Origin: an uncultured Ignavibacteria bacterium
Lineage (GTDB): Bacteria > Bacteroidota > Ignavibacteria > Kapaibacteriales > UBA2268
Direction: 5' to 3'
Length of the DNA stretch: 50,868 bases
Assembly (NCBI GenBank): GCA_903862655.1
Contig: CAIOZA010000087.1
Coordinates: forward strand, 1-50,868
This document shows positions 5,569 to 50,538 of this stretch, one piece after another. The notes beneath the pieces were generated by a model. It was not told the DNA's origin. It did not search any database and saw only the letters and a program-made list of their open reading frames with translations. How positions within the stretch are numbered: the stretch's first letter is position 1; every line of letters starts with the position of its first letter. A program made the position numbers and the translations under genes.

Positions 5569-5648
5569 TGTCATTCCGAACGCAGTGAGGAATCTCAGCA
5601 CGCATAAATACTGTATTCTCACGGTCGCTTCGCTCCCTCAGAATGACA
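5569..5648 (+). repeat. dispersed palindromic repeat, copy 2
   Basis: An 80-bp element from TGTCATTCCGAACGCAG to CCCTCAGAATGACA. Its reverse complement is nearly identical to the element at 7129-7206, including the central CAGTATTTATGCG core. The two copies bracket the ArsF-like gene and arsM in inverted orientation. Confidence 0.85.
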
Positions 5649-5687
5649 ATGAAATAGAATATATTTATTAACATAGAAACAAAAATT

Positions 5688-6990: not shown

Positions 6991-7128
6991 AAGTGGTTCA
7001 TTCTTAATTAAGGGAAGAATCCAGATTGAATAAAAATATCGAATATCGAACACTGAACACAGAATGATGAAGGGAATGGCAGGCAGGCTGGCATTCCTGC
7101 GCATGAGACTGTGTGAAAACTACGATTT

Positions 7129-7206
7129 TGTCATTCTGAGGGAGCGTAGCGACCGTGAGAATCCAGTATTTATGCGGACTAGATTTCTCACTGTGTTCGG
7201 AATGAC
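7129..7206 (-). repeat. dispersed palindromic repeat, copy 3 (inverted relative to copy 2)
   Basis: It runs from TGTCATTCTGAGGGAGCG to GTGTTCGGAATGACC and is the near-exact reverse complement of 5569-5648, with the same internal core. A plus-strand reading frame at 7064-7267 runs through it but shows no coding character. Confidence 0.85.
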
Positions 7207-7388: not shown

Positions 7389-8039
7389 TCATTTTAATAA
7401 TGTTATCTTTTTCATTAAATAGTTTTGAGGAATTATTATAGACAAATAATATTGTCCGTCAGAACTATTCGAAACATCTATGTAATACGAGGATTGGTCG
7501 ATATCTGATGAATATATTGTTTTACCGTTTAAATCTATGATAGATATTTTCATAACCTCGAAGGAACTTTTTTTGGAAAGTGTGATAATCCCATTTTGGT
7601 TTTGTAAATAAAAATATTCGTCAAGTTTATAAATAGAATTATTATTATAATTATAGGAAGAAGGAAGGAACTCAATTATAATCTTTTTATCCCCAATATT
7701 ATATAACTTTGCAACCTCTTTTCCTGATAAGATTTCTTTAAGAACATAAGTAAAATCCGGTCCAGCATAAGAACCGGAAACCAAATGAGCTGTATAATAT
7801 TGCAATTTATCACTAATACCATAATTATCAATTACAGAATATTGTCTTTGAAAATCACCTCTACACCAAATGTAATAGAAGGAATAATCGTATCTACCAT
7901 CATTATTTTCATCATTAAGAATCATTAAATCAGAGCAAATATTTGATTTTTCTTCTATATATATCACTGTTGGCTTTACAGCATTGAGGATATTTATAGA
8001 TATAATTAGTAATAATAATATTAAAGTTATTCTATTCAT
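7389..8039 (-). CDS. secreted protein with T9SS-like C-terminal domain
   Basis: A 216-residue AT-rich gene. Residues 1-20 are a signal peptide (ITLILLLLIISINILNA). The middle is unrecognised, with CSDLMILNDENNDGRYDY resembling a short Asp-rich calcium-loop-like or VCBS-like stretch. The last 70 or so residues (LQNQNGIITLS...MKISIIDLNGKTIYSS...DGQYYLSI...KKITLLK) follow the pattern of a Por/type IX secretion sorting domain, so surface export is likely. No catalytic motif is visible. It stands alone between two repeat elements and the next minus-strand gene. Only the export signals are well supported; the function is unknown. Confidence 0.7.
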   Translation of the reverse strand: MNRITLILLLLIISINILNAVKPTVIYIEEKSNICSDLMILNDENNDGRYDYSFYYIWCRGDFQRQYSVIDNYGISDKLQYYTAHLVSGSYAGPDFTYVLKEILSGKEVAKLYNIGDKKIIIEFLPSSYNYNNNSIYKLDEYFYLQNQNGIITLSKKSSFEVMKISIIDLNGKTIYSSDIDQSSYYIDVSNSSDGQYYLSIIIPQNYLMKKITLLK

Positions 8040-41207: not shown

Positions 41208-41387
41208 TTAACTATGTTTTTCTTTAAATCCCGTTAACTTCACTTTCACCCAGCGGTGGAAATTGTGGGGGAATTTCTGTTTGTCGGTGAACATCAGCAT
41301 ACACTCTCCGGTTACGGCATTCAGGTTGTGCTCCTTGATGAACTCTCTTGAGGATTGATGATCCGATCCCAACTACAGCCAGACGGC
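41208..41387 (-). pseudogene. broken copy of the CoA-binding protein gene (3' part)
   Basis: Read on the minus strand this encodes VWL*LGSDHQSSREFIKEHN, then continues like the intact gene at 43678-44133 to HRWVKVKLTGFK. By my count 49 of 54 residues match the intact C-terminus, with one in-frame amber stop where the intact gene has Gln. The 5' two-thirds of the gene is absent. The copy is in the same orientation, about 2.5 kb away. The rest of the 535-nt gap before 41618 has no gene that I can see. Confidence 0.9.
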
Positions 41388-41617
41388 TCTAAAACCAGCG
41401 GGAAGGAAGATATTTCTTTTCAAATGTAAATTCACACCTCTATCAATAGTTTTAACAAATTCAATGATGATAATTACAAGTCACACACAACTCCGAGATA
41501 TTCATAGAACGTAGTACAAACTGCTACACGCTTATCAACTTATCTACTACATTGTTTTATTTTATAAATTCTTATTTTACAATATATTTTTATTTTATTT
41601 ATATATATGGAGAAATT

Positions 41618-41989
41618 ATGACTAGAAGATTCATTCTTTTCGTTTTCTTATTGGGAATGATGTCTATTCTAGCTTATTCAGCTACAGAAACATTAAGAGA
41701 AGGAATTTGTGGAGACCGAATTGCACAAGTTGGTGCAGACCCCGAATGTGAACCTTCACAAGCAACTTGTTATGTAAAAATTTATTATGATGACGGTACA
41801 ACAGGCGAAGCAAAAATGGCAGTATGGGAACCAGCTACTCAATTGGGATATGGTGATATAAGGAATGTTGATGTTTGGTCGAGTCCAACAGGCGTTTATC
41901 ATTATAAAATTAATCTCTATTCATATAGTTATACTTTCAATGCCCCAACTGAACTAGTCGTACATACTTGGATTGCCAATCAACCATAA
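41618..41989 (+). CDS. small secreted protein, AT-rich cassette gene 1
   Basis: 123 residues from the ATG at 41618 (GGAGAAATT upstream); an earlier in-frame start at 41552 would put an odd hydrophobic lead before a normal signal peptide. Residues 1-21 (RRFILFVFLLGMMSILAYSA) are the leader. The mature part of about 100 residues has three cysteines (GICGD, PECEP, ATCYV) and beta-type segments rich in Tyr (YVKIYYDDG, YHYKINLYSYSYTF). I recognise no family. It is followed on the same strand by a hairpin and the second cassette gene, and both lie between two copies of a CoA-binding gene. Confidence 0.7.
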   Translation: MTRRFILFVFLLGMMSILAYSATETLREGICGDRIAQVGADPECEPSQATCYVKIYYDDGTTGEAKMAVWEPATQLGYGDIRNVDVWSSPTGVYHYKINLYSYSYTFNAPTELVVHTWIANQP

Positions 41990-42006
41990 TTTTCTTTAAA
42001 TATTTA

Positions 42007-42036
42007 ACAAGCCCGGATTTCATCCGGGTTTACTTA
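42007..42036 (+). terminator. hairpin between the two cassette genes
   Basis: CCCGGAT and ATCCGGG form a perfect 7-bp stem with a TTC loop, followed by a short TTTACTTATTT. It begins about 20 nt after the first gene's stop and could let the small protein be made in excess of the second. Confidence 0.7.
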
Positions 42037-42060
42037 TTTATAAAAAATAGGAATAAAAAT

Positions 42061-43620
42061 ATGGCAACTTTAAAAACAATTTTATTAATTTTTTTTATTT
42101 TAACAATTCTATCTTCCAATTATTGCCATTCCATTACAAAAACGAAGGAATTATCACCTATATTTGCTTTTTTTATTGAATTTCAAACTTGTGCTTCTTG
42201 CAATTACTTAACTATTAATCTCAACATTAATTTAATAGAAAAGAAATTTCCTGAATCAAAAATTCTTGTTTTTGTAAATATTGCAGATAGCTCAATGATA
42301 GATGAAAAAATATCAACCAAAATTAAATCTAAGCATATATATTTTTTAACACCTGATGATACTGATTCTTTAGAAAAGTCTTTAAGTGTGTCAGATTACC
42401 CAACTCTAATTGTGTTTAATTTCAATGGCGATGAATTATTGCGGTACAGTGGAAAGGAATTTGAAAGCATATCAAATGTAAAAATTATTAAAACCTATGA
42501 CATGAATATCATTGAAAGAACAAAGAAAATTAATTATCCTATTGGAGCCCCACGGGCACAGTCATTAACGATTTTGGATAGTATTGTTTACTATGTAGAT
42601 ATAGTAAAAAATGAAATTGGTGAATTTAATCTTCAAACCGGTGACTCAATAAAATCAATACAACCTGATGATTTTTTAAAAGATTATTCTTTAAGTAAAT
42701 TAAATAAAATTGATGAGCAATGGATAAATGAAAAGATGTATCCATTAACTAATTACAAATGTATTATCCCATTAAGCCTAGATAAAATTCTCTGCCTTAC
42801 TACAAATGTTGCTGGGGTAACGACTGACACATCTTTTGTTCCCAAGAATAATACAGTAGAAACAAATGTATGTAAGTTAATTAAGATATTGAGTGTTCTA
42901 GCAAATATTGAAAATGGATCAACTATTAAAATTGATAAATTTTTAAATGATGATTATACCTTAGCTCATTTAAAGAGATTCAAAAATGGTAAATTAGGTG
43001 CGTCTCTTTCTCTAATGGATAAAAAGAAATATTTAGGAAATTTAAAATTATTGGATAGTGCTTATATCTTCATTCAAGCAAGTAAAAATGATTATAGTGA
43101 TGCTGAATATCTATTATCTTATAGTGTTTTAATGAAGGCTTACGGCTTAGATAGCATTAATTTATACTCTTTAGGATTAATGGATTATTGTCCACAAAAA
43201 GATTCTTATTTTTATTTAAATCCTTTTATGAATGCATTTATTTCTTATAAGAAATCAAACAATCAAATTACTAAAATAGTTCCAAAAGGATTATTATGCA
43301 ACATATTTGATTCGAACGGAAAATTAGCCAAATTCTATAAAAATGATATTCAATCAAAGTATGTTTATTATTTGATGGAATGGTTTATTGACGAGGATAA
43401 AATAAATATTTTGATTTTACCGAAGAATAAAGAAAAATTTACTGATTTTTTTGTCATTAGTACATATAACCTTGAAGGTATATTCATCAAAGAAACATAC
43501 TATTACTATGATAATCTTGACCATATCTTTAGAGTACATTTATTTGGTAATTCGACTAACAATAAATGTTATCAATTGATACAATCAAAAGAAAGAAAAT
43601 GGCAATTATTTGAGAAATAA
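42061..43620 (+). CDS. secreted thioredoxin-like protein with propeller-like C-terminal part, cassette gene 2
   Basis: 519 residues from the ATG at 42061; an upstream frame to 41968 adds non-homologous sequence running back over the hairpin. Residues 1-24 are a signal peptide. Residues 32-140 read as a thioredoxin-like fold: IFAFFIEFQTCASCNYL has CxxC at Cys44/Cys47, then ILVFVNIADS and DYPTLIVFNFNGDELLRYSG, which includes the cis-Pro position (YP). From about residue 150 the protein is strand-rich (APRAQSLTILDSIVYYVDIVKNEIGEFNLQTGDSI), as in six-bladed beta-propeller lipoproteins of Bacteroidota. A redox or sensing role outside the cytoplasm is inferred. The gene is very AT-rich compared with its neighbours. 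Confidence 0.7.
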   Translation: MATLKTILLIFFILTILSSNYCHSITKTKELSPIFAFFIEFQTCASCNYLTINLNINLIEKKFPESKILVFVNIADSSMIDEKISTKIKSKHIYFLTPDDTDSLEKSLSVSDYPTLIVFNFNGDELLRYSGKEFESISNVKIIKTYDMNIIERTKKINYPIGAPRAQSLTILDSIVYYVDIVKNEIGEFNLQTGDSIKSIQPDDFLKDYSLSKLNKIDEQWINEKMYPLTNYKCIIPLSLDKILCLTTNVAGVTTDTSFVPKNNTVETNVCKLIKILSVLANIENGSTIKIDKFLNDDYTLAHLKRFKNGKLGASLSLMDKKKYLGNLKLLDSAYIFIQASKNDYSDAEYLLSYSVLMKAYGLDSINLYSLGLMDYCPQKDSYFYLNPFMNAFISYKKSNNQITKIVPKGLLCNIFDSNGKLAKFYKNDIQSKYVYYLMEWFIDEDKINILILPKNKEKFTDFFVISTYNLEGIFIKETYYYYDNLDHIFRVHLFGNSTNNKCYQLIQSKERKWQLFEK

Positions 43621-43677
43621 TAGAAATTCTACATTATAATTAAAGAATTTAGTTTATCATTTTTTTTCTAATTTCTA

Positions 43678-44133
43678 TCATACACTCTTGAATCCCGTCA
43701 AATTTACCTTCACCCAGCGATGGAAATTATGTGGGAATTTTTGTTTATCGGTGAACATCAGCATACATTCTCCCGTTACGGCATTCAGGTTGTGCTCCTT
43801 GATGAACTCTCGTGATGATTCATCATCTGATCCCATTTGTAGCCAGACATTCCTGATATCAGCATCCAGAGCTTCTTTCAGAGCTGTCTTTGCAAAGTTT
43901 TTATTCGTTACAACAACTACTCCCTCGACCTTACCCTTGGTCTGATCGATTGATTTGAGGCAGGGTATGCCGTCATACGAATCCATACTCTGATGCACAG
44001 GATAGAGATTGTACCCTTTGCTCTTCATGCTTTTGAAAACCATATTACCGAACTTCTTGTCATTACGCGATACACCAACGAATGCAAGATTCTTCAAACC
44101 TAAAAACTGATCGATTTTTTCTAACTTAGTCAT
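43678..44133 (-). CDS. CoA-binding domain protein (YccU type)
   Basis: A 151-residue Rossmann-fold protein of the CoA-binding family. LKNLAFVGVSRNDKKFGNMVFKSMKSKGYNLYPVHQ is the nucleotide-binding start, and VVVVTNK..., VWLQMGSDDE and NAVTGECMLMF are family elements. Cytoplasmic; binding of CoA is inferred from the family, and the role is unclear. A truncated copy with an internal stop lies at 41208-41387, so this is the functional parent. It precedes the lone MNT gene by about 50 bp in the minus direction. Confidence 0.88.
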   Translation of the reverse strand: MTKLEKIDQFLGLKNLAFVGVSRNDKKFGNMVFKSMKSKGYNLYPVHQSMDSYDGIPCLKSIDQTKGKVEGVVVVTNKNFAKTALKEALDADIRNVWLQMGSDDESSREFIKEHNLNAVTGECMLMFTDKQKFPHNFHRWVKVNLTGFKSV

Positions 44134-44186
44134 AAAATTAATTAAGAATTAAAAATTACGAATTAATAATTTATTAAAATTTCTTA

Positions 44187-44492
44187 TTAACAAGCAATAG
44201 AAAATACTGTTTGTGAATTGTTAACTACCCTGTCTCTTATAAGAATATTTATGTCCTGTTTGGTTCTGAGATCAATTTTATGACCCAGTAACTCGCATAA
44301 CTCATTTTCCATTCTTGCGACACCGAATAAACTGGGCATATTTTCAGGCTGAAATTCAACAAGAAAATCAATATCACTGCTTTCAGGATTAAAATCATTA
44401 CGCAAAGCAGATCCAAACAGTGCCAGTTTGGCGATGTGATTTTTCCTGCAGAATTCTTCTAGTATTTGTCTGTATTTTTCTATTAGTTCCAT
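44187..44492 (-). CDS. MNT-type nucleotidyltransferase
   Basis: A 101-residue minimal nucleotidyltransferase. HIAKLALFGSALRNDFNPESSDIDFLVEFQPENMPSLFGVARME carries the GS-x10-DxD catalytic motif. Such proteins act as the antitoxin MntA, which AMPylates the HEPN toxin HepT. A HEPN partner is normally adjacent, but the neighbours here are a CoA-binding protein and a lipoprotein, so this is an orphan in the window. Its own transcription cannot be judged. Confidence 0.9.
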   Translation of the reverse strand: MELIEKYRQILEEFCRKNHIAKLALFGSALRNDFNPESSDIDFLVEFQPENMPSLFGVARMENELCELLGHKIDLRTKQDINILIRDRVVNNSQTVFSIAC

Positions 44493-44564: not shown

Positions 44565-45128
44565 TTAATACTTTTTACCATTAATTTTTGCTGATTTCAG
44601 TTGTAATTCGCCTCTGAACCAACCTATTCTGATTAAGCCAACTCCTTTGGCATAGATTCGTGAAGACCCTCCATCCCTTGCAAAGGCAAAATCCTCAACA
44701 AGTTTACAGTTAGAAAATCTACCAATCTTTAGATCAAAAAATGCCAAATCTTCAGTCTTATATGTATGGATATAAACTGAATCGGTTATATTGTCAGAAA
44801 AATCCAAGTAAAGAGTTTCACCGGATGGACGATATTCGTAGAACTTCATTCCGTCAGCATTTCTAATATAAAAAGTATCTACTTTGCCAACTATATTTGT
44901 TCCATTGTAATTTGAAGATACTAGAATATAATAATTCAATTTATTGATTATCATTGTTCCGGTAACTGTTTGATTTAGTGTTTCAGTAGTATCTCCAAAA
45001 AACTCATAAATCCATTCATTGCCAATTTCTAATGGGAAATAATGAGAACTTGTCCTTTCAACAGGATTTTCTTTGCAACTCACCATTGTAAGAAGTAGTA
45101 TAACCAGAGATGTCAAAAGAGTTTTCAT
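44565..45128 (-). CDS. lipoprotein, unknown function
   Basis: 187 residues. The leader TLLTSLVILLLTMVSCKENP ends in a lipobox (MVSC), so it is lipid-anchored. SSHYFPLEIGNEWIYEFFGDTTETLNQTVTGTMII is typical of a Bacteroidota/Ignavibacteria lipoprotein family with the Y-x-P-L-x-x-G-N-x-W-x-Y motif, whose role is not known to me. The stop and start are close to the GH20-like gene (23 bp downstream of its end), so the two may be co-transcribed. Confidence 0.8.
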   Translation of the reverse strand: MKTLLTSLVILLLTMVSCKENPVERTSSHYFPLEIGNEWIYEFFGDTTETLNQTVTGTMIINKLNYYILVSSNYNGTNIVGKVDTFYIRNADGMKFYEYRPSGETLYLDFSDNITDSVYIHTYKTEDLAFFDLKIGRFSNCKLVEDFAFARDGGSSRIYAKGVGLIRIGWFRGELQLKSAKINGKKY

Positions 45129-45151: not shown

Positions 45152-47899
45152 TTATAACTTAATAAAAGATTTATATATTTGATTATTGACTAACTTAATC
45201 GAAATAAAGTACATACCGGGTAATAATTTTTCCACATTTATTAAATGTGAGCTTTGATCTGATTTTCCGGAATTTAATATTTCGCGAACTAATACATTTC
45301 CTGTCAAATCAATTATATCGAAGCTTATAGGCTTAATTTCACCTTTAATCTCCACTTTCAATTGATTAACTACAGGATTCGGAGATATAATGATATTTTC
45401 CGCTAAATCTTCATCAACTCCGGTTTTGATCGCTCCCATTTCATAGTATTGACCTTTTCCGTATGGTACTTTCGTTACCCAACCACGGTTGTCGTGAGCT
45501 TCGATGTAGTACTGCAGATATTCTGCATCTAATGGTACTTTCAGATCGAAATTAATTGTTCCATTATCGACTGTGGTATATTCAACGCTGAACGGATCAG
45601 TTGGATCAATCCTCCAGAATAAAGCGACTGTATCAGCCTTCCATCCGGCATCATAAGTATCTCCGGCAATCTCTCCTGAGATTTTTATTGTTCCAATAGG
45701 TTTAATTGAAGGATCTGGCGGCTGATGATAGATATATGGTGCATGATTCCAGCAATAGCGGGCGTGATGTTCGAGATAGTTATAGTTGGCTCCCCAGGTT
45801 GTGTAGAGCATTCCGAGGAAATTTGGTACGCCCTGAGAAGACTCTTTCGATATTCGGATTGCATTCTGATCCTGATCATAGAAAGGTGCAGTCATTTGTC
45901 TGAAACCCCTGTCCGAAAAATAACCCAAACTCTGCTTAGCTTTACCGAAGTTCCAGCTGACCATACCGAGTGTATTCGGGATTAAATCAGCAACACCGCC
46001 CAAATCGCCATTAACGAGATAATAGTTCTTCACTCCGGGAACTGCATTATGGTACGGATCGAACATATCTGTCCATGTCCATACATCGGCTTTGGGATTG
46101 ATTCTCTTGATAATGTCAGTACATTTATTGACATTATCTCCCAGTATCTGACCAGGTGTAAGTCCTCGTGACTGATCGCCTGCGTCCCAGTTCATGGTTC
46201 GTATCTCATCGTGATTCATGAAGTATATATCAGGCTGAGCAAGACTATCCAGCAGCTTCAGCTCGCGTTCGATTATATCATATACTTTCTGATCGCTCAT
46301 GGTTACCATCACTTGTCCATCATATACAACAACTGCGTGGTAATATGACATGAACAAAGTATCACCGTTCTTAATCGACCCTGTCTTTTTGATTCTGAAG
46401 GTAGGGGGTTGGTGCCAGCTGTCGTAGTCACCGGGCCAGGGATTAACGTATCCCATCTTTTTATCAACTAAGGAGTCATAATCTATGGCTTCCATTATTA
46501 CAAGATCAAGCAGGGGATTATCAACACTTAATGGAGCTCCTTCCCTGCGTATCAGATTGACGAAAGCAACTTCCTCAAGCACAAGATCATCGAACCAGAA
46601 TTTGCCTGCTGTTGGTCCCCAAACGCCCCAATAAACATTCATTGTGTCGGCATCGAGCGAATTGAAAGTTACATCAAACTTCTGCCAGCCTGTAGTTGTT
46701 GAAGGCACATTTACATTTTGATAGCAGAGTCCTCTGCCTTTATTGCCAATAGCAGTAATTTGAAATTGTGATGAGAATTTAAGATTTTCTGTCTTAACCC
46801 AGGCTGATGCATGGAACTGAGTATAAGGTTTAACCTTGAATCTGGAGCTGACTCTGGCATTCATGTATCCGCCGATTTGCTCAAAACCGCTGAATCGGAT
46901 TGACACATTGCCAGAATGTTTTTCTTGAGTATCTGCGAAACTCATTACTCCGGGCTGATCAATAAATCCGAATCCGGGGAAATTATTGCCGTTATGTGTC
47001 TCAAAACCCGGATTGCTCAGCGTTACATTCGAACTTGGGACAATCTTTGCCGTATCGCCCTGTATCACAAATTTCTGTCCCTGAACTGGTAAACCCGATG
47101 CCAGATTCGGATCCCAATACAGAAGTCCGTTTGAATAACCGAATGACATACATCCCGGAACAAATTTCATGTATTTCGAATTAAGATATTTCCTGGCTGA
47201 AACGAGAGAATCCCTGTATCTCTGTGGCTGTTGAGAGATAAAGTCATACTTGTAATCAGGTATAAAAGCACCGTTGAGTTTGTTCGCAGAGGCTCTGTCT
47301 ACCATAGTTTTCAGAATTGTTGTGTTGTTGCCCACCAGAAAATTTGTCGGGTAATAGTACCATCTAATCGGAAACTCCGGAGCATCCACAACACGGCAGG
47401 CACGAAGGTAATTCTTCATGTTTAGCTTGTTTACCATCTGGAAGAATGTAGTGATGCCATAGAACAAACCTGCTTCGTCGCTTCCTGTGATGATCGTTCT
47501 GATCGGCATAACATCGATTATATATCCCTCAGGACCTGGGAATGTATCCGATATCTGAATCTTCTGATCGGGAATCATGTCAAGCAACCTGTTTGCCTGT
47601 TTGCCGGCAATTGTAAGAACTACACCTTGATGAACAGAATCAGCCTCCCCGAATAGCACTATTTTAAGTGTATCCATTCCTGCTTTGCGCATTTCTTCGT
47701 TAAATATAGAAGCTGACTTAAAAGCCGGGGAATTTACGTCAAGAAATATAGATGCACCGTTGAGAGAGAAGACTGCACTATACTGACCGCGTATGTATGC
47801 ACAGCGCGGCTGTGGAGTTAGTGGTGTCAGATCCTGAGAAATTAAGGCAGTAGCACCAAGCATGAAAAGAACGATTAATACAAGTAGATTTTTCATCAT
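45152..47899 (-). CDS. GH20-like secreted glycosidase with inserted CBM-like domain and T9SS signal
   Basis: 915 residues from Met at 47899, which has CTGGAGAAGTTA upstream; the longer form adds ten residues before the leader. Residues 1-22 are a signal peptide. About 25-165 resemble the GH20 N-terminal domain (PQPRCAYI..., EGYIIDV, ITGSDEAGLFYGITTFFQMV). The catalytic barrel starts VVDAPEFPIRWYYYPTN and contains NHDEIR (Asp564, Glu565), equivalent to the GH20 Asp-Glu pair. Between its first strands and that pair sits a jelly-roll insert (NPGFETHNGNNFPGF to FWFDDLVLEEV, about 290-440), as in CBM4/9-type modules. The C-terminal 80 residues are a type IX sorting domain. Hexosaminidase activity is plausible but not certain. 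Confidence 0.78.
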   Translation of the reverse strand: MMKNLLVLIVLFMLGATALISQDLTPLTPQPRCAYIRGQYSAVFSLNGASIFLDVNSPAFKSASIFNEEMRKAGMDTLKIVLFGEADSVHQGVVLTIAGKQANRLLDMIPDQKIQISDTFPGPEGYIIDVMPIRTIITGSDEAGLFYGITTFFQMVNKLNMKNYLRACRVVDAPEFPIRWYYYPTNFLVGNNTTILKTMVDRASANKLNGAFIPDYKYDFISQQPQRYRDSLVSARKYLNSKYMKFVPGCMSFGYSNGLLYWDPNLASGLPVQGQKFVIQGDTAKIVPSSNVTLSNPGFETHNGNNFPGFGFIDQPGVMSFADTQEKHSGNVSIRFSGFEQIGGYMNARVSSRFKVKPYTQFHASAWVKTENLKFSSQFQITAIGNKGRGLCYQNVNVPSTTTGWQKFDVTFNSLDADTMNVYWGVWGPTAGKFWFDDLVLEEVAFVNLIRREGAPLSVDNPLLDLVIMEAIDYDSLVDKKMGYVNPWPGDYDSWHQPPTFRIKKTGSIKNGDTLFMSYYHAVVVYDGQVMVTMSDQKVYDIIERELKLLDSLAQPDIYFMNHDEIRTMNWDAGDQSRGLTPGQILGDNVNKCTDIIKRINPKADVWTWTDMFDPYHNAVPGVKNYYLVNGDLGGVADLIPNTLGMVSWNFGKAKQSLGYFSDRGFRQMTAPFYDQDQNAIRISKESSQGVPNFLGMLYTTWGANYNYLEHHARYCWNHAPYIYHQPPDPSIKPIGTIKISGEIAGDTYDAGWKADTVALFWRIDPTDPFSVEYTTVDNGTINFDLKVPLDAEYLQYYIEAHDNRGWVTKVPYGKGQYYEMGAIKTGVDEDLAENIIISPNPVVNQLKVEIKGEIKPISFDIIDLTGNVLVREILNSGKSDQSSHLINVEKLLPGMYFISIKLVNNQIYKSFIKL

Positions 47900-49428: not shown

Positions 49429-50538
49429 ATGAAAACAGAAAATAAAAGATTTGAAGATTTACTCAAAAAGATTCGTGAAGAAAATAAGGAGAAACGAATA
49501 AATATCCGTGTTAGGAAAAATAAGTATGCCTACACTGTTTATCTTGATTATTTTAGAAATGGTAAACACGATTATTACTTTTTTTCGAATGCACAGAAAT
49601 TAATTGGCAAACCAGAGTCAATCCAAGATGATATTGAACTGATTGATCATATTCGTAATTTCAGAAATATAAAAGAACGAGAAATAAAAGATAATCCTGA
49701 TAAACTCTCTTTATCATTTGAATCAAAAGATTCTGATTTTATGGCTTACTACGATGACATTCAGAAAAAGAACCAGAGACCACAATATCAGGGCGCATAC
49801 AGACATCTTAAAATTTTCTTTAATGAAAGACCAGTGAGGTTCAGTGAGTTGAACTACAAGGTTTTTGAGCAGTTTAAAGAGTACATTATGAAAGAGGTTG
49901 GTGTTAATACTGCCGCAGGATATTTGGTTATTACCCGAGCAGTTTTGAACAAAGCTATACGGGATAAAATAATCAAAGAAAATCCAATGAAAGATGTAAG
50001 GATAAAATCTGTAGATTCTGATATTGAATTTCTTGACGAAAAGGATTTACAAAAGGTTATCAAAACTCAAACTAAATTGATTGAGATTAAAAATGCCTTT
50101 TTATTTTCATGTTTTACTGGTTTAAGACGGTCTGATATGTTCGCTCTTACTTTTGATAGGATCAGAGACAACATGTTGAAATTCAGACAAAAGAAAACTG
50201 ATAAAGAAGAATATTTACCATTGAACGCAGATGCCTTAAAGATTATTAATGAACAAAGAAAACGTCACCCTGATTCTGATAAAGTTTTTCACTTTAAAAG
50301 CATTCCAGGAATGCAATATTCGCTTTCTAAGTTTTTGAAAGAAGCAAAAATAGAAAAATCAATACATTACCACTGCTCGAGGCATACATTCGCTGTCCGT
50401 TGCCTAAACAATGGCATTGGTATCTATCAAGTCTCAAAGTTTCTTGGACATGCGAATATCAAAGCGACACAAGTATATGTAAAATTCGTTACAGAAGAAA
50501 AACGTAAAGAAATGGATAAATTACCGAACTTGATGTAA
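49429..50538 (+). CDS. tyrosine recombinase (site-specific integrase)
   Basis: 369 residues with an N-terminal SAM-like core-binding domain (about 95-190, FMAYYDDIQKKNQRPQYQGAYRHLKIFF) and a C-terminal catalytic domain. The catalytic residues are readable: Arg in FSCFTGLRRSDM, Lys in the beta-hairpin around QKKTDKEEYLPL, HxxR in HYHCSRHTFAVR, His/Gly in KFLGHANI and the nucleophile Tyr in ATQVYVKF. This is the type used by integrative elements in Bacteroidota. All parts are present, so it is probably active. Its element, if any, would lie beyond the window or is only this gene. Confidence 0.93.
   Translation: MKTENKRFEDLLKKIREENKEKRINIRVRKNKYAYTVYLDYFRNGKHDYYFFSNAQKLIGKPESIQDDIELIDHIRNFRNIKEREIKDNPDKLSLSFESKDSDFMAYYDDIQKKNQRPQYQGAYRHLKIFFNERPVRFSELNYKVFEQFKEYIMKEVGVNTAAGYLVITRAVLNKAIRDKIIKENPMKDVRIKSVDSDIEFLDEKDLQKVIKTQTKLIEIKNAFLFSCFTGLRRSDMFALTFDRIRDNMLKFRQKKTDKEEYLPLNADALKIINEQRKRHPDSDKVFHFKSIPGMQYSLSKFLKEAKIEKSIHYHCSRHTFAVRCLNNGIGIYQVSKFLGHANIKATQVYVKFVTEEKRKEMDKLPNLM

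Follow-up and report, generated by a model that had tools for sequence, protein, structure and literature searches.

How did an intact gene and a broken copy of its own 3' end come to lie on either side of a pair of other genes? This question is raised by a locus of an uncultured Ignavibacteria bacterium, which we analyzed within a window of 50,868 nucleotides (the whole stretch of DNA under study, one of the 148 contigs of a 4.07 Mb genome). Among named genomes, its nearest rpoC match (80%) was the MAG Bacteroidetes/Chlorobi group bacterium ChocPot_Mid, followed by Bacteroidota, Ignavibacteria, Candidatus Kapaibacterium and Chlorobiota entries, and we therefore speak of a Kapabacteria-type genome. 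The fragment is followed by two plus-strand genes and then by the intact gene, with both copies on the minus strand; the remnant, which adjoins an M6-peptidase gene, retains only about the last two fifths of the gene. The intact copy encodes a CoA_binding_2 protein (PF13380: residues 14-126, E 1.6e-23, 83.8 bits against a gathering score of 22.8). The features of the locus, in window positions, are:

41208-41405, minus strand: 3'-terminal remnant of the CoA_binding_2 gene, with homology to residues 89-150 at 41220-41405 and one amber codon; frame closed by a stop at 41208
41311-41347, minus strand: 37-bp block, candidate exchange point; identical to 43775-43811
41406-41617, no strand: AT-rich spacer ahead of the gene pair, GC 0.241; single-copy in the genome
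41618-41989, plus strand: gene for a 123-aa protein; hydrophobic N-terminus; three cysteines common to its homologue in genome G069
42061-43620, plus strand: gene for a 519-aa protein; N-terminus hydrophobic; CxxC region weakly matching a thioredoxin fold, the rest unassigned
43678-44133, minus strand: intact CoA_binding_2 gene, 151 aa, with the PF13380 match
43775-43811, minus strand: 37-bp block of the intact copy; identical to 41311-41347

The original prediction, which was made from the letters of the window, held that the end of the CoA-binding gene is directly repeated around two plus-strand genes, and both statements were borne out. In a BLAST search of the window against itself, fragment and intact copy were 87.0% identical over 161 nt (E 2.5e-50), and alignment of 41224-41399 with 43688-43863 gave 84% identity over 176 nt in direct orientation. 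The local alignment of the repeat scored 217, far above the maximum of 36 reached in 200 mononucleotide shuffles. In translation, residues 89-150 were 84% identical, interrupted by a single TAG, and from VWL onward the two copies encode the same residue in 49 of 54 codons, the very count that had been predicted. The fragment had been placed correctly but ended too early, at 41387, as homology reaches ~41405. Both intervening genes are present as ORFs that start with ATG. With the dust filter on, this repeat was the longest that self-BLAST found in the window, and the remaining two matches corresponded to two tRNA-Gly genes and to an 80-bp inverted pair. The latter (91% identity; 5570-5649 and 7128-7206) lies on either side of a 138-aa ORF and a methyltransferase gene, and its 56 matches in the genome, its own included and many of them partial, define a dispersed repeat family.

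Whether the repeat is young can be read from the differences between the copies, which affect 29 of 177 positions. A Nei-Gojobori count that left out the amber codon gave a dS of 0.95 and a dN of 0.060 over 58 codons, half of the synonymous sites being different, and alternative estimates of dS were 0.97 and 0.73. Such mostly silent divergence under selection indicates that the copies are not the product of a recent duplication, a reading that we rejected on a dS of this size. In the last 44 codons, which are free of frameshifts, 14 synonymous differences stand against one non-synonymous difference (dN 0.009). Across the initial 14 codons that can be compared dN is 0.25, so the part of the fragment nearest its broken edge is, judging from these counts, less constrained. 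From the counts we infer that the fragment belonged to a functional gene during almost the whole interval since the two copies parted, and that the break came late. The minus strand of the remnant (41208-41372) also holds a putative frame of ~54 codons past the amber, with TTG as its first codon and almost without amino-acid changes.

The residues in which the copies depart from other members of the family were compared in 24 aligned sequences, out of 38 relatives' loci. At residue 92 the fragment has G, as do 20 of the 24 relatives (two have D), and the intact copy has D; residue 93 is F in the fragment and I in 22 of the 24 relatives; and residue 99, which is Q in 23 of the 24, is a stop in the fragment. 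Thus, neither copy is simply derived from the present form of the other, and by this comparison the fragment is an allele of its own that did not arise simply through decay of the intact copy.

One run of 37 bp (41311-41347 and 43775-43811) is identical between the copies, which elsewhere are 13-16% diverged. When mismatches were reshuffled within codon positions, the probability of such a run was 0.010 (20,000 trials), a value weakened by the fact that the test was chosen post hoc. This identical block may mark an exchange point. The broken edge of the fragment (~41405) lies 58 bp from it, homology runs ~55 nt upstream of it, and the amber codon is also upstream, so that an exchange inside the block would leave a complete reading frame. 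This restored frame, together with the direct orientation of the repeats, is what speaks for the idea put forward in the original prediction, namely a recent duplication of the gene end around a cassette that can be excised. The silent-site divergence speaks against it, as do the relatives that carry the large gene of the pair with no CoA-binding gene nearby (see below), and we hold it to be very improbable. What survives from that proposal is recombination at this gene as the best account of how the locus originated, but not recombination starting from a fresh duplicate.

We then looked at the distribution of the CoA-binding gene. The CoA protein was matched at E 1e-3 in 54 of 100 relatives and at E 1e-25 in 26 of 395 genomes of the phylum (its own genome included in both counts), the best other matches being 34-37% and 38-40% identical, respectively. 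The intact gene fits the PF13380 profile over its residues 14-126, yet its best relatives found are only 34-40% identical to it, and in these searches the two copies are by far each other's nearest relatives. None of 37 pattern-scan matches in named genomes was a close relative, pattern scans of viral contigs (sensitive to close relatives only) gave no match, and a single 26% match in a Microcystis phage was not informative. The closeness of the two copies would be as expected for one gene drawn from two related lineages.

The main rival to that reading is that the two copies are old tandem CoA paralogues, both long under selection, and that the gene pair was inserted with deletion of the 5' part of one of them. 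Tandem paralogues would account equally for the pattern of dS and dN and for the direct orientation. We found no such tandem pair when 40 loci were inspected together with as much as 1.5 kb on either side (39 CoA matches at E 1e-3, at most one per locus; two of these loci are distant homologues in the genome of the window itself), nor in 15 loci of 12-20 kb, each with one match. It should also be noted that this scenario needs a duplication, a long joint maintenance and a separate insertion-deletion, and we consider it unlikely, even if it deserves to be taken seriously.

We next turn to the pair itself, which had been described as clearly different in base composition. This holds for the 519-aa gene (GC 0.254, GC3 0.198) but not for the 123-aa gene, whose overall GC is an ordinary 0.368 in spite of a low GC3 (0.202); another gene of the window (7389-8039, GC 0.258) is equally AT-rich. 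Both proteins are putatively secreted, as read from their hydrophobic N-termini, and neither had a match in Pfam (E 0.1) or NCBIfam. The larger one had also been called propeller-like, a description that found no support in Pfam, NCBIfam or PDB sequences: only its N-terminal CxxC region matches a thioredoxin fold, and weakly so (family profiles against PDB: tryparedoxin, profile positions 23-109 and 29-125, E 3.6e-4 and 1.4e-3), leaving ~390 residues outside the match. A single-sequence model of this protein (pLDDT 35) was too poor for a structure search. The likeness to tryparedoxin-like proteins consists of the weak profile match and of the CxxC of the window protein; the 519-aa family does not keep CxxC throughout, the first cysteine being missing in the G071 row of the alignment. 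That the large protein might act on disulphides of its small neighbor is guesswork based on their anatomy.

A profile search at E 1e-8 detected the 519-aa family in 9 of 123 genomes of the order, its own included (8 of the 122 others), which is a patchy distribution, and the five aligned relatives are 18-38% identical to the window protein. The original prediction had tied the pair to the repeat. In all eight stretches around relatives of the large gene (5.8-16 kb), no CoA-binding gene was matched at E 1e-2; in three of them (L062, L065 and L067) the contig breaks off beside or within the large gene. The repeat is thus no regular companion of these genes, and in the stretches covered that tie did not hold. 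Repeats of another kind surround the large gene in L068, where direct repeats of 29-35 bp lie on both sides with larger repeats nearby; L062 has three short palindromes, and the remaining six stretches had no repeats at E 1e-4 (L069 covers only 455 bp past the gene).

Among 60 genomes searched, the 123-aa protein had one relative besides itself, in G069, where the homologue directly precedes a 519-aa relative that runs off the contig end. Its N-terminal match is in a different frame and the match crosses a TAA, which counts against a clean pair there; this copy may be broken. In G071, the 519-aa relative is preceded by a 149-aa cysteine-bearing protein that is just 22% identical to the 123-aa protein. 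The genome G061 has no 123-aa-like gene, and the ORF directly upstream of its 519-aa relative encodes 261 aa, presumably an RNA methyltransferase. Only an unrelated 72-aa ORF lies upstream in G030, and upstream of the relative in G479 there is no ORF of 45 codons from ATG. In G024 (L068 5256-6649), the 519-aa relative is preceded by a protein weakly like the 187-aa protein of the window (44565-45128; 31% over 61 residues), together with its tandem repeat.

Could the pair have arrived as a mobile element? Some prophages integrate in such a way that a replacement 3' gene end displaces the old one. Taking this into account, an integrase-bearing element could have inserted at the 3' end of the CoA gene, brought a replacement end and later lost its integrase. 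The order of intact gene, insert and displaced 3' end has this geometry, the 37-bp block would fit att sites, and a tyrosine recombinase gene is present at 49429-50538. No recombinase or integrase was found between the repeats, where there are only the two genes without a Pfam match at E 0.1, and the integrase that does exist lies 5.3 kb beyond the intact gene. The block stops short of where the homology ends, ~55 nt further upstream, the sequence between the repeats has no second copy in the genome, and relatives of the large gene occupy other loci, with direct repeats on both sides in only one of eight (L068). The marks of an integrative element, that is, an internal recombinase and terminal inverted or att repeats common to other copies, are therefore absent, and we regard this origin as improbable. 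As for the recombinase gene itself, it is located near the contig end, in a stretch of 26-32% GC.

A transposon or a cassette with repeated ends was rejected, as the insert has no inverted ends and no copy elsewhere in the genome; when 41380-41620 was compared with 43600-43700, the sole exact match of at least 9 nt was one inverted 9-mer. A phage or plasmid origin was likewise set aside after searches that gave no informative match: the 519-aa protein had none in viral contigs (pattern scans, sensitive to close relatives only) and the 123-aa protein had none in plasmids. An assembly artefact, in which gene versions of two strains were joined, has in its favor that the genome is in 148 contigs, that MAGs supplied its three nearest named rpoC matches and that an exact repeat of 37 bp can mislead an assembler. 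It is opposed by the broken edge, which is 58 bp off the block and joins sequence that is single-copy in the genome, and we find it most improbable.

The locus is probably a product of recombination at the CoA-binding gene, and the reading that we favor, tentatively and at a little short of even chances, is that of a displacement scar left by a past exchange of DNA with a diverged relative. A starting chromosome with a CoA_binding_2 gene would have received DNA that carried the same gene followed by the two-gene unit. Recombination would have been anchored in or beside the CoA gene, and an illegitimate join, or a second exchange, would have taken place inside its 3' third. The incoming gene end and the two genes would thereby have been installed, and the old 3' end, now with an amber codon, stranded beside the M6-peptidase gene. 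The large dS with low dN, the G kept at residue 92 and the mutual closeness of the copies favor alleles of two lineages, and the patchy occurrence of the large gene in the order also counts for such a scar. The insert is bordered by a homologous part of the gene at one end and by the displaced remnant at its other end; tandem paralogues would look alike. Counting against it, no one-copy locus is at hand from a donor or a same-genus genome. The relatives searched included no genome of the same genus, so that the direction and mechanism of the event, namely which copy was resident first, what the donor was and whether homology joined the DNA at one side only, are matters of inference. The same arrangement would result from a circular molecule integrated by a single crossover, or from an integrase working on the 3' end of the gene.

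Comparable scars have been proposed for Vibrio T6SS loci, in which the old 3' end and immunity genes would have been shifted behind incoming modules (PMC5361080). The authors name homology-facilitated illegitimate recombination as "perhaps" the route and call such events quite rare (PMC5361080), a rarity which counts against our reading; the process is described for transformable bacteria (PMC3240628). The likeness to the displaced effector ends and orphan immunity genes of Vibrio is the incoming module beside a conserved gene part, with the old 3' remnant behind it (PMC5361080). The present locus differs in that its steps come without a population series to order them, and in that the displaced gene encodes a small CoA-binding protein, not an effector, of which the pair is not a known partner.

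We also asked which copy is the older resident. Two genes separate the intact CoA copy from a glycoside hydrolase (GH) gene that lies upstream of it at 45152-47899, and in G014, one of 15 relatives' loci examined, the end of a GH homologue (44-47%) immediately precedes the CoA gene. This is a hint that the intact copy occupies the ancestral position and is resident at least in its 5' part. The hint is thin, since in the 12 other relatives that match both genes these are apart, on different contigs in ten and on the same contig in two (28 kb in G016 and 2.3 Mb in G047). Base composition does not decide which copy is older. The fragment has a GC3 of 0.70, against 0.50 in the stretch of the intact gene that it matches and 0.46 in that gene's 5' part; the intact gene is thus even in this respect and no chimaera is visible in it, with the little power that 150 codons afford. 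Over 59 codons, the fragment has G/C at 16 of 24 GC/AT differences and the intact copy at eight; in codons 5-54 the numbers are 12 of 16 versus 4 (P 0.08, not significant). The region downstream of rpoC cannot polarize the event either, as it is not conserved: with 11 window proteins tried on 13 of 80 rpoC loci, just rpoB and rpoC were matched (matches longer than 35 residues), L070, L075 and L076 spanning 1.5-3.4 kb past rpoC and L087 ending inside it.

Two further observations concern the sequence next to the intact gene. Directly upstream of its start, 44136-44175 is an AT-rich heptamer-like repeat (AATTAAG/AATTACG type), which stretches of contigs C135, C69 and C14 resemble. The adjacent MntA-like nucleotidyltransferase gene (44187-44492) was rejected as an MntA-type antitoxin, as it scored 37.6 bits against NCBIfam NF047752, below the cut-off of 60, and no HEPN match was found among the nine proteins scanned at this end of the window.

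It would be a bold step, and one to which we assign only the slimmest likelihood, to see in the small cysteine protein and the thioredoxin-like protein an undescribed, patchy two-gene module of Kapabacteria-type genomes that spreads without a recombinase of its own through exchanges at host genes and leaves through the 37-bp block with the host gene restored. The event itself is of an ordinary kind and leaves known mechanisms unchallenged. The locus is a legible record of gene gain in a lineage for which no close sequenced relative turned up in the searches. It shows how divergence at silent sites can set displaced alleles apart from new duplicates, and the uncharacterized gene pair that came to lie within it is mildly interesting and may merit a separate study.
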